A stretch of 44,641 bases of DNA from Collinsella sp. An268 (GTDB lineage Bacteria; Actinomycetota; Coriobacteriia; Coriobacteriales; Coriobacteriaceae): positions 1 to 44,641 of the forward strand of contig NZ_NFJH01000015.1 in assembly GCF_002159765.1 (NCBI RefSeq). Reading direction: 5' to 3'. Positions 25,740-29,099 of the stretch are shown here, one piece after another; the first letter of the stretch is position 1, and every line of letters starts with the position of its first letter. The notes below the pieces were generated by a model that worked only from the letters and a program-made list of their open reading frames with translations, did not search any database and was not told where the DNA came from. The translations under genes were made by a program, and so were the position numbers.

Positions 25740-27374
25740 ATGTCCGACCGTCTGCTCTCCTCCGTCCTGCGTCCTCTTGCCGCGCGCACCCTCGCCGCGG
25801 TGCGGCGGCTCGAACGCGTGCGCTCCGAGCGGGTGCTCGCCGTCGCGCTCGTCGCGCTCTTGGCTGCGGCGCTCGTGCCGATGGTCGCCATCTCCGCGTA
25901 CGACCACAGCTACGCGGACGACTGGCACTACAGCGTCAACGTGCACCTCGCGCTCGCGGCGGGCGGTGGCGCCGCCTCGGCGCTCTCCGCCGCGGTCGCC
26001 GAGGTCATCGACGCCTTCTTTACCTGGCAGGGCACCTATTCCGCTATCTTTCTCATGGCGCTGCAGCCGGGCGTGTTCTCCGAGGAGCTCTATGGCGCGG
26101 GCGCCGTCGGCATCATGGCGACACTCATCGCCGCGACGGCCTACGCGGCGAGCGTGCTGGTGCGGGACGTGCTCGGGGCGGGGCGCGCGGTGTGGGTGAG
26201 CGTCACGGCGGGGGTGCTGCTGCTCGAGACGCAGCTCATGCCGAGCCCGGTAGAGGGCATCTGGTGGTATAACTCGGCCATCTACTATACGTTCTACCAT
26301 GCGCTGCTTCTGGTGATGATGGGGCTTGCCGTGCGCATGCTGCGCGGCGGTTCGCGCCGGGGCGCCTACACCCCGGGCGGCACGGCCGTGCGTGCGGTGG
26401 CGCTCGCCGCCCTCGCCGCCGTCGTGGCCGGCGGCAACTTCGTGACCGCGCTCGTGGCCGCCCTCGCGCTTGCGGGCGCGTGGCTGTGCGCGGCGCTGGG
26501 CCCCCAGGGCGCCACGCGGCGCCATCTGCTCATCGTACCGGCCCTCGTCGCCTTCGCGCTGGGGTTCACCGCCTCGGTGGCGGCGCCGGGTAATGCCGCC
26601 CGGCAGGCGACGCAGTTTGCAGGCGATGGCCTCGGCGTGCTGTCCACCTTGCTGCGCAGCGGGTTTGCGGCGGGCGAGTACCTCGTCCTTTGGACCAATG
26701 GGCTTCTCGTCCTCATGCTCGCCCTGGTGCTGCCGCCGCTCGTGCGCGCGGCGGCGCGCTCAAGCCTGTCGTTTCGCCTGCCCGGCGCGGGTATCGTTGC
26801 GGCCTTCGCCCTGTTCGCCGCGAGCTTTACGCCCACGTTCTTCTCGATGGGGACGGTCGGCCCGGGGCGCGTGCAGAACATCCGCTACGACCTCTTCGTG
26901 ACGCTCGTGGTGATCTGCGCCACCTGGGTGGGCGGCTGGTGGGTCCGCCGCCGCGAGGCTGCCGCCGCTCCGCCGGGCGCTCACACGGCACCTGCCGCCG
27001 CGCCGTCTTCGGACGTCTCGCACGCCTGCGCGCCGGCCCCGCGCTGCGCCCTTACGGTGGCGCTGCTCGTCGTGCTCGCGTTCGGGGTGGGCGCGCTCGC
27101 GCTCGACGAGCGCCATGCGGACGACCTCGTGGCGGTGTCGGCGGCGCGCTCGCTTGCGAGCGGCGAGGCGGCGGCCTACGACGCGCAGATTCGCGACCGC
27201 ATCGCGCTCATCGAGGAGTCGGATGCCGCCGAGGTGGAGGTGCCGTTCATCACGACGGCGCCCAAGGTGCTCTTTATGGGCGACATCCGCGACAACATGG
27301 CGAACTACATCAACTTCCGCCTGGCGCAGTGGTATGGCAAGGACTCCATCATCGGGTACCACGCCGCACTGTAG
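25740..27374 (+). CDS. Polytopic membrane protein, DUF6056-like
   Basis: 544 residues with about ten to twelve predicted helices. The first helix (about 32-52) leads into an extracytoplasmic loop with DHSYADDWHYSVN; an acidic ADD/DD pair just after the first helix is typical of lipid-linked-sugar (GT-C type) glycosyltransferases and of DUF6056 proteins. Further on are GIWWYNSAIYYTFYH and GGNFVTA. The C-terminal about 100 residues are soluble and end with RLAQWYGKDSIIGYHAAL. I infer a GT-C-like envelope glycosyltransferase or a relative; the assignment to DUF6056 is from memory. It follows the U32 gene by 9 nt (AAAGGAGG before the ATG) and is probably co-transcribed. Confidence 0.6.
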   Translation: MSDRLLSSVLRPLAARTLAAVRRLERVRSERVLAVALVALLAAALVPMVAISAYDHSYADDWHYSVNVHLALAAGGGAASALSAAVAEVIDAFFTWQGTYSAIFLMALQPGVFSEELYGAGAVGIMATLIAATAYAASVLVRDVLGAGRAVWVSVTAGVLLLETQLMPSPVEGIWWYNSAIYYTFYHALLLVMMGLAVRMLRGGSRRGAYTPGGTAVRAVALAALAAVVAGGNFVTALVAALALAGAWLCAALGPQGATRRHLLIVPALVAFALGFTASVAAPGNAARQATQFAGDGLGVLSTLLRSGFAAGEYLVLWTNGLLVLMLALVLPPLVRAAARSSLSFRLPGAGIVAAFALFAASFTPTFFSMGTVGPGRVQNIRYDLFVTLVVICATWVGGWWVRRREAAAAPPGAHTAPAAAPSSDVSHACAPAPRCALTVALLVVLAFGVGALALDERHADDLVAVSAARSLASGEAAAYDAQIRDRIALIEESDAAEVEVPFITTAPKVLFMGDIRDNMANYINFRLAQWYGKDSIIGYHAAL

Positions 27375-27452
27375 CGGCGGGCCACGCCGGTGGAACGCCC
27401 GCCGCGCCCGCGCCCGAGCCGCCGCGCTCGCGCCCGCGGTACCTTTTCGCCG

Positions 27453-27581
27453 GCAATGAACCCGATAATGTACTCGGAAATCTACGCGCAGAAGAACCCC
27501 AGCTAGATGGCGTTACAAAAACGCTTGTAATGAACCCGGGGCTAGAAAAACACCCTGTTTGTACAATATCGGGTTCATTGC
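27453..27581. repeat. 129-bp inverted-repeat element upstream of tyrS (MITE-like)
   Basis: GCAATGAACCCGATA (27453-27467) is repeated perfectly in inverse at 27567-27581. The match continues as W-TGTAC, so each arm is 21 bp with one mismatch. A third, partial copy (TAATGAACCCG) lies inside at 27528-27538, and GCGTT-ACAAA-AACGC forms a central hairpin. The element is more AT-rich than its surroundings. No target duplication is obvious. It lies in the 510-bp gap between the DUF6056-like gene and tyrS. The remainder of that gap shows a possible -10 (TACACT, 27777-27782) but no T-box. Confidence 0.6.
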
Positions 27582-27884
27582 ACGCGATTATGTACCGAGC
27601 ACTTGGCAAATTGCTTGGTAGTGTGCAGCGCATGGTCCGGTGCGGCACATAGTTCGCGACGCGCACCCCCGGCATGCGAAAGCGACCGCAACGAGAGGGG
27701 CGGCGCCGCCTGCGGGCACCGCGCCCGCGCGTTGGAAATACCCGTGCTTTTTCTGCCCCACGCGCCAGACCTCCGCTACACTAGAAACGTTGTACGCAAA
27801 GACCCAGCACCGCCCCGGGCGCCCGCGCGTGATGCCGCCGGCCGCCCCTGCGAGGGCGAGGGTGCTAGAACGCAGGAGGAACCT

Positions 27885-29099
27885 ATGCTCTCTGTCGACG
27901 AGCAGATGCGTATCATCACCTCGGGCGCCGCGCAGATCGTGCCCGAGGCCGATCTCAAAAAGAAGCTGGAGCGCGGTGTCCCGCTGAACATCAAGCTCGG
28001 CGTCGATCCCACCTCGCCCGACCTGCACCTGGGTCACGCGGTGCCGCTGCGCAAGATGCGCCAGTTCCAGGACCTCGGCCACAAGGTCACCCTCATCATC
28101 GGCAACGGCACGGCGATGATCGGCGACCCCTCGGGTAAGAACACCACGCGCCCGCAGCTCACGCAGGAGGAGGTCGAGGCCAACGCCGCCACCTACGTGG
28201 CGCAGGCCATGAAGATTCTCGATCCCGAGAAGACCACCATCGTGCACAACGGCGACTGGATCCTCTCGCTCGACCTGAAGGGCATGCTCGAGCTCTGCAG
28301 CAAGTTCACCGTGGCGCGCATCCTGGAGCGCGACGACTTCACCAAGCGCTACCAGAGCCAGACCCCCATCGCGCTCCACGAGTTCCTCTACCCCGTGATG
28401 CAGGCCTTCGACTCGGTTCAGATCCGCGCCGATGTGGAGATGGGCGGCACCGACCAGCTCTTCAACCTGCTCGCCGGCCGCGAGCTCATGGAGAAGATGG
28501 GGCTCGAGCCGCAGGTGGCGCTCACGATGCCGCTGCTCGAGGGCACCGACGGCGTGCGAAAGATGAGCAAGTCGTACGGCAACTACATCGGCCTCACTGA
28601 TGAGCCGGCCGACATGTTTGGCAAGACGATGTCCATTCCGGACGAGATGATCGGCAAGTACTACCGTCTCGCGAGCTCCAAGACCCCGGACGAGGTCGAC
28701 GCGATCGAGGCGGCGCTCGCCGACGGTTCTGCCGACCCTTACGAGCTCAAGCGCGCGCTCGGCCGCGACCTGTGCGACACCTACCACGGTGCCGGCGCGG
28801 GCGAGGAGGCCGAGGCGGCGTTCGACCGCGTCTTCAAGGAGAGCCAGCTGCCCGAGGACATCGCTGAGGTCGAGGTCGACCTCACGCCCAACGACGAGGG
28901 CCTCGTGTACCTGGCGGGCGTTCTGCACGCGGCGGGGCTCGCCTCGAGCATGGGCGAGGCGCGTCGTCTCATCGACGGCGGCGGCGTGAAGATCGACCAG
29001 AAGGCCGTCGCCCCCAAGAGCTACAACGTCGATCCGGCGCTGCTGCATGCAGGCGCCGTGCTCCAGGTGGGAAAGCGCAAGTTCGCGCGCCTGGCGTAG
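27885..29099 (+). CDS. tyrS: Tyrosyl-tRNA synthetase
   Basis: 404 residues from ATG 27885 (AGGAGG 5-6 nt upstream); the frame is open further upstream but encodes nothing conserved. The class I signatures are HLGH (48-51) and KMSKS (226-230), with GGTDQLFNLLAGRE between them. A C-terminal S4 RNA-binding domain (about 340-404) ends in QVGKRKFARLA. The HLGH/KMSKS combination and length fit the TyrZ-type branch of bacterial enzymes. It charges tRNA-Tyr with tyrosine. It is a single-gene unit with a strong terminator, flanked by two inverted-repeat elements. Confidence 0.96.
   Translation: MLSVDEQMRIITSGAAQIVPEADLKKKLERGVPLNIKLGVDPTSPDLHLGHAVPLRKMRQFQDLGHKVTLIIGNGTAMIGDPSGKNTTRPQLTQEEVEANAATYVAQAMKILDPEKTTIVHNGDWILSLDLKGMLELCSKFTVARILERDDFTKRYQSQTPIALHEFLYPVMQAFDSVQIRADVEMGGTDQLFNLLAGRELMEKMGLEPQVALTMPLLEGTDGVRKMSKSYGNYIGLTDEPADMFGKTMSIPDEMIGKYYRLASSKTPDEVDAIEAALADGSADPYELKRALGRDLCDTYHGAGAGEEAEAAFDRVFKESQLPEDIAEVEVDLTPNDEGLVYLAGVLHAAGLASSMGEARRLIDGGGVKIDQKAVAPKSYNVDPALLHAGAVLQVGKRKFARLA

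Follow-up and report, generated by a model that had tools for sequence, protein, structure and literature searches.

A palindrome ahead of tyrS in Collinsella sp. An268 as a probable worn copy of a genus-restricted family of intergenic repeats

The tyrS locus and its palindrome

The window in this study is the whole stretch of DNA that was analysed, that is, 44,641 nucleotides of one contig of Collinsella sp. An268. The tyrS gene lies on its + strand at 27885-29099 (TIGR00234, 361.8 bits; PF00579). The upstream gene, at 25740-27374, encodes 544 aa and matches DUF6056 of Pfam below the threshold and no NCBIfam model. In the spacer between the two genes lies the element of interest, a core repeat in the form of a 161-bp imperfect palindrome at 27437-27597 on the + strand, delimited by a repeat search and by its gapless homology to other copies in the genus.

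The original prediction, made from the letters of the DNA, was a 129-bp inverted-repeat element at this place. The inverted repeat is real: its arms at 27453-27473 and 27561-27581 pair over 21 bp, of which the first 15 are perfect and one later position is a mismatch, and it is the sole inverted repeat of this length and quality (one mismatch at most) in the whole window when the arm starts are at most 200 bp apart. The size of 129 bp did not hold, and these arms form the inner part of the 161-bp core, whose outer arms at 27437-27473 and 27561-27597 comprise 37 nt each and are 84% complementary. As predicted, the element is more AT-rich than its flanks (51.6% AT in 27437-27597 vs 27.0% and 30.7% in the two adjoining 137-bp stretches).

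The core contains a unit of about 26 bp ending in AATGAACCCG, which occurs three times, twice on the + strand and once on the - strand. Unit U1 (GTACCTTTTCGCCGGCAATGAACCCG) was read from the sequence at 27439-27464 (+). Unit U2 (GTTACAAAAACGCTTGTAATGAACCCG), found in the sequence and by the repeat search at 27511/27512-27538 (+), is the third partial copy that had been noticed inside the element, and U3 (reverse complement GTACATAATCGCGTGCAATGAACCCG), found in the same way, is inverted at 27570-27595 (-). The exact AATGAACCCG occurs in the window at these three unit positions only. When one mismatch is allowed, there are still 3 matches, and shuffled windows give 1.69 on average, with 22 of 100 reaching 3. 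Thus AATGAACCCG alone is insignificant, whereas the palindrome itself is significant. The RNA fold of 27437-27600 is also unusually stable (z = -6.93 for the + strand and -7.55 for the - strand), and none of 200 shuffles on each strand was as stable.

The similarity to other copies extends beyond the core. Our family model R1, a sequence-only model of 248 positions built from 27 copies, matches 27405-27637 on the + strand with its positions 8-246 at 127 bits. To the left of 27437 the homology is weak, with a 6-column gap in alignment A1 (described below). To the right, 27598-27643 (+) is the worn right arm of a longer 250-bp form according to A1, in which TTGGCAAATTGCTTGGTAGTGTGC... stands against CCGGCAAAAGGCCTTGCAATGTAC....

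About 180 bp separate the end of the element from a promoter-like box, TACACTA, at 27777-27783 (+), which is mentioned here as context and is kept in the seven congeneric genomes G001-G007. A leader hairpin AGCACC...GGTGCT follows the box and is kept in our genome and in all 7 congeners with a readable region ahead of tyrS; the remaining genome, G008, is 85% complete and has a cut contig. A strict scan of 27300-27950 for sigma-70 promoters and terminators gave 0 of either, and we therefore regard the box as a presumptive promoter. No family match is present upstream of tyrS in any of the 7 checkable congeners. Since the box and the leader lie downstream of the element and the 7 congeners have no family match there, no role in tyrS is indicated, and the suggestion that the element is a structured tyrS leader did not survive this comparison. 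A tyrS leader or T-box was also rejected by the absence of Rfam covariance-model matches at the gathering score in the window.

The spacer itself differs between relatives. The 353 bp at 27382-27734 correspond to 15 bp in the sister species (G006), which represents an empty or deleted site and not a clean insertion. In another congener, G005, about 200 bp of unrelated sequence lie between the upstream gene and tyrS (L120, about 1245-1480). The spacer ahead of tyrS seems prone to replacement.

A repeat family restricted to one genus

The genus sample comprised nine genomes, G000 to G008, of which G000 is the genome of Collinsella sp. An268 itself. The genus is An7 of GTDB in the Coriobacteriaceae, for which PMC8035907 gives the name Candidatus Coprousia. 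The original prediction had named a single copy without conservation in relatives as the result that would speak against it. This was examined, and the element proved to be multi-copy and conserved as a family. Searching the same genome for 27440-27600 yielded 7 matches outside the element and its own arm; they lie at 6 places, one of which is a full-length copy at C22:49571 that is 72% identical to the window copy. A pattern of two heptamers 12 bp apart had 39 matches in the same genome, and the reversed control had 0.

The R1 search of the genus gave 121 matches, merging to 73 places in 6 of the 9 genomes (18 in G000, 15 in G006, 13 in G005, 10 in G003, 9 in G002 and 8 in G007), and none in G001, G004 and G008. 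The carriers are a small group of chicken-gut bacteria. Outside the genus, no family match was found in 56 genomes of Coriobacteriaceae (65 genomes of this bacterial family were searched with stricter filters, and the six carriers alone had matches). Among GTDB contigs, a scan for an exact pattern hit 10 stretches, of which 9 belong to Candidatus Coprousia avicola and 1 to Collinsella sp. An7, our own genome possibly being left out of that scan. A phage or plasmid origin was rejected: one canonical copy had no blastn match in 50,697 phage and 72,556 plasmid records, and none of the 19 stretches found by an end-motif scan of viral contigs had a family match at E up to 0.01.

Two forms of the element can be distinguished. 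Alignment A1 contains 27 of 28 copies from G000, G006 and G005 (copy L055/L209 was left out, and copies found later by the sequence-only family model are not included), and it presents a gapless element of about 250 bp, which is the length of most copies in G000 and G006. Each of the 27 copies carries 8-12 heptamers within one mismatch of AATGTAC or AATGAAC in either orientation, the window copy having 8, and some columns are invariant across all 27. In G002, G003 and G007, the matches span about model positions 55-203, and the element has a length of about 160 bp. A cross-genus alignment of 20 copies including the window copy is nearly gapless over this core of about 160 bp, and the 161-bp palindrome of the window is therefore the core shared by the genus. 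The long form in G000 and G006 adds further arms to this core. A quick tree joins the window copy to the one at C22:49.5k, with a support of only 0.51.

All 18 copies examined with a rough, home-made gene caller are intergenic. By the same caller, 10 lie between co-directional genes, 4 between divergent and 3 between convergent genes, and 1 was undetermined because no right-hand gene was called. Elsewhere in our genome, at about 68.4k of contig C12 (L257, 2861-2960), GCCGCTACCTGC and AATGTCC resemble the central motif of the element; R1 has no match there.

Many copies occupy the same sites in different species. At ten sites, G000 and G006 carry orthologous copies. The site upstream of rpsL carries an element in G000, G006, G003 and G005, the left flank of one G006 site recurs at a site in G003, G007 and G002, and for each of the 4 clade-2 sites tested, one or more other genomes carry an element at the corresponding position. 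The site comparisons omitted alignments below 70 bp at rpsL and at this G006 site, and below 120 bp at one site of G002, G003 and G007, and another copy comparison omitted those below 150 bp.

Where empty sites were sought in a relative, most proved to be replaced. The site at C1:388.8k has unrelated sequence in G006, and at the G006 sites L105 and L101 it is G000 that has a different sequence. At these three sites and at tyrS the element is replaced and not cleanly missing; only C20:222k is near-clean, with a gap in G006 and CGCGCC on both borders. This shared CGCGCC could be a duplication or deletion micro-homology. No target-site duplication is certain among these sites: none is seen at tyrS or C1:388.8k, and C20:222k is ambiguous.

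The element had also been proposed to be an invertible segment. In 10 of 10 G000-G006 pairs, the two elements point the same way with respect to the flanks that match, which argues against this proposal; no site in these pairs had both orientations, and the tyrS copy has no orthologue for comparison.

From these results, the palindrome ahead of tyrS belongs to a genus-restricted, non-coding, intergenic palindromic family. We consider it probable that it is an old, divergent and worn copy, and this judgement is made jointly with the history proposed below.

Exchange between copies and the origin of the family

We compared elements with their flanks at the shared sites. In all ten G000-G006 pairs, the element identity (81.1-92.8%) is below that of every measured flank (89.4-97.6%; 19 of 20 flanks were measurable). 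At the same time, some copies within one genome share identical tracts of 56-94 bp, and the longest of these are missing from their orthologues. In G000, paralogues L046 and L010 share 88 bp, with 26 differences to the orthologue of L046; L008 and L009 share 94 bp, with 10 and 14 differences to their orthologues; and L045 and L009 share 75 bp, with 13 and 26 differences. In G006, L091 and L103 share 74 bp, with 25 and 8 differences to their orthologues. The element divergence above the flanks, together with the same-genome tracts, is consistent with partial ectopic gene conversion. In the four-way site patterns, 459 sites support the orthologue grouping, 154 the same-genome grouping and 88 the cross-grouping control. 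Because most informative sites still group orthologues, conversion would be only partial, and part of the same-genome excess may be homoplasy. As judged from the sequences, the data fit partial ectopic gene conversion between copies at mostly fixed sites.

The rpsL site gives a further example. There, the elements of G000 and G003 are only 48.4% alike beside one 1.4-kb flank of 90.7% identity, and each element is closer to the copies of its own genome (means 72.0% in G000 and 76.3% in G003). The different element types at this site could instead reflect independent insertions or fast divergence. At one site of G002, G003 and G007, conversion is not seen, since the orthologues are 98.1-98.8% alike and no more divergent than their flanks.

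One pair of copies from G000 and G005 stands apart (L054 at G000:C20:66.4k and L264/L088 at G005:C17:33.4k). The elements are 96.0% alike with flanks of 98.5% (left) and 83.5%, and tyrS is 86.7% identical between the two genomes. A recent transfer or recombination is possible for this pair.

We propose the following account, which taken as a whole (family membership, history and conversion) we judge to be probable. Each copy is an array of a short DNA site, the heptamer AATGWAC, often 12 bp apart and in both orientations, to which a putative protein might bind; the array also allows one strand to fold into hairpins. An enzyme acting in trans, in a MITE-like or REPIN-like manner, may have spread the family before the species split. 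Most copies would now be inherited in place, and the copies within a genome would be partly homogenised by ectopic gene conversion. As for its trigger, the hairpin-forming palindromes perhaps provoke recombination, in which hairpin nucleases may have a part.

Several other explanations were weighed against this account. The first is a true MITE, which would derive by deletion from a DDE-type insertion sequence and in which the heptamers would be transposase sites in long terminal inverted repeats. A MITE was one of the original suggestions, and part of it stood: the element is short, non-coding, multi-copy, intergenic and palindromic. Its length is near-constant, with end motifs 196-197 bp apart among the paired matches listed, and presence or absence differs between close relatives. 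The long imperfect terminal and subterminal repeats contain many short sites, and in the 250-bp form the two outer arms repeat each other imperfectly in inverted orientation; R1 matches both strands. A transposase with the same ends was looked for with the end motif in 297 genomes and at the PF01797 loci, and none was found there. Among the matches listed in these 297 genomes of the order (one mismatch allowed), paired ends occur only in the genus and always as a short element. A clean target-site duplication is lacking at the sites described above, and most copies in G000 and G006 are at shared sites. A MITE-like ancestry of the family is plausible but unproven, and a MITE proper seems to us somewhat unlikely.

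The second explanation is a REPIN-like element moved or copied by a resident RAYT-like Y1/HUH tyrosine transposase. PF01797 is found in 7 of the 9 genomes of the genus, and the genomes whose long ORFs match at 43-48 bits are precisely the six repeat carriers; in G004 the sole match is a strong IS200-like one, and G001 and G008 lack any. Two of the carrier proteins scored 56.2 and 75.6 against REP_Tyr_transpos of NCBIfam, under the cut-off of 80, and above the cut-off of Y1_Tnp. In addition, two gene trees place G008 within the carriers although it has neither the repeats nor the gene, and the hairpin arms show paired changes, as PMC3116915 reports for REPINs. Against this, G008 is incomplete, its placement has SH-aLRT values of only 80 and 93, and the clustering of carriers in the trees is no better than in shuffles (154 and 169 of 500 as low). 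The copy number of 8-18 per genome is far under that of typical REPs.

In addition, no family match at E up to 1 lies in 12 PF01797 loci, and the genes are flanked instead by another repeat, TTTGGGGACGGG, which was found in 9 of 321 loci searched, all of them these gene loci. Its positions, partly inverted, are 1230-1241 in L257, 1594-1605 in L259, 1209-1220, 1370-1381 and 2210-2221 in L260, 1244-1255 and 2323-2334 in L250, and 1001-1012 and 1965-1976 in L253. We regard the transposase gene and TTTGGGGACGGG in the six genomes as a separate RAYT/TIRYT-like system. Because the gene has these other flanking repeats, we did not adopt the RAYT as the mover; for the same reason, and because of the missing family match nearby and the insignificant clustering, the co-occurrence of the repeats and the gene is only suggestive. 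The REPIN-like explanation is unlikely in our opinion. In the genomes compared, we saw neither an enzyme that could have spread the family nor excision, nor a site that was cleanly empty.

The third explanation is a functional cis element, either a binding-site array or a structured RNA, selected at fixed sites and homogenised by co-evolution with its partner. The invariant columns of A1 and the sites common to several species favour it, and so do the short hairpins. In alignment A2 (15 loci, several being orthologues of each other), 5 of 19 pairs of the U2-U3 hairpin changed on both sides, and 96.5% of the cells are paired vs 92.4% in shuffles, with 0 of 500 as high in a control that ignores relatedness. 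In the left hairpin of A1, 7 of 18 pairs changed on both sides (93.4% paired vs 89.0%; 0 of 500 as high in the same kind of control). In contrast, the strong pairing of the long arms in the window copy is not maintained by paired changes in other copies (68.5% vs 67.6% in shuffles), by which a single conserved RNA fold for the long arms was rejected. Taken together, these paired-change tests indicate that short hairpins or symmetric sites are kept, and not one long RNA stem. Copies are also lost or replaced between close relatives, there is no Rfam family, and the gene contexts are mixed (10/4/3/1 of 18). We think that a cis element is unlikely.

It is improbable, in our view, that the repeats are resident landing pads overwritten by a REP-type HUH transposase, in which single-stranded copies would not go to new places but replace the interiors of copies already there, and some 10-20 dispersed arrays would evolve in concert at fixed sites in a species-specific manner. 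A tyrS-specific leader or invertible promoter segment, for which the position upstream of tyrS and the strong fold speak, is hardly credible, because the family lies elsewhere in the genome and is absent at tyrS in all 7 checkable congeners, TACACTA and the leader lie downstream, and the other copies keep one orientation in 10 of 10 pairs.

Comparison with known repeat systems

Our searches of open-licence PMC papers revealed no earlier description of this family, and it seems to be a new family within a known kind, the intergenic palindromic repeats. It adds a family to the repeats of the Coriobacteriaceae. Its main value lies in concerted evolution at fixed sites: with copies at fixed syntenic places, partial conversion between 250-bp repeats can be quantified at each site separately, and one can ask directly whether it is hairpin DNA or a REP-type transposase that drives the homogenisation of bacterial intergenic repeats. 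It also calls for caution, in that a palindrome upstream of a gene should not be taken as the regulator of that gene.

Like MITEs, the elements are short, intergenic and non-autonomous in appearance, with long terminal inverted repeats; unlike MITEs, they have no parent transposon and no target-site duplication in our comparisons. With REPINs and REPs served by a RAYT, they share inverted hairpin units, two-sided stem changes and a REP-type transposase gene in the same genomes. They differ in length (160-250 bp), in the number of units (three or more, against two REPs), in their low copy number, and in a transposase gene flanked by the other repeat. TIRYT genes are described in PMC3733652 as RAYT-like genes flanked by long TIRs. 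The present gene resembles them in being RAYT-like without REP flanks, and moderate repeat families can co-exist with such genes according to the same paper; however, the repeat beside the gene here is TTTGGGGACGGG and not the tyrS-type element.

The likeness to ERIC, BOX and RUP is in general form: roughly 100-250 bp, non-coding, intergenic, palindromic, bound to a lineage and present in tens of copies (ERIC of E. coli is given as 127 bp with 21 known copies in PMC2267715). In agreement with the ERIC/BOX type, our family has multiple dispersed non-coding copies, an intergenic location and inverted repeats capable of forming hairpins. Unlike ERIC, BOX and RUP, to which Rfam detected no sequence relation, the present family is built of heptamer arrays, and it makes what appears to be partial conversion at fixed sites visible.
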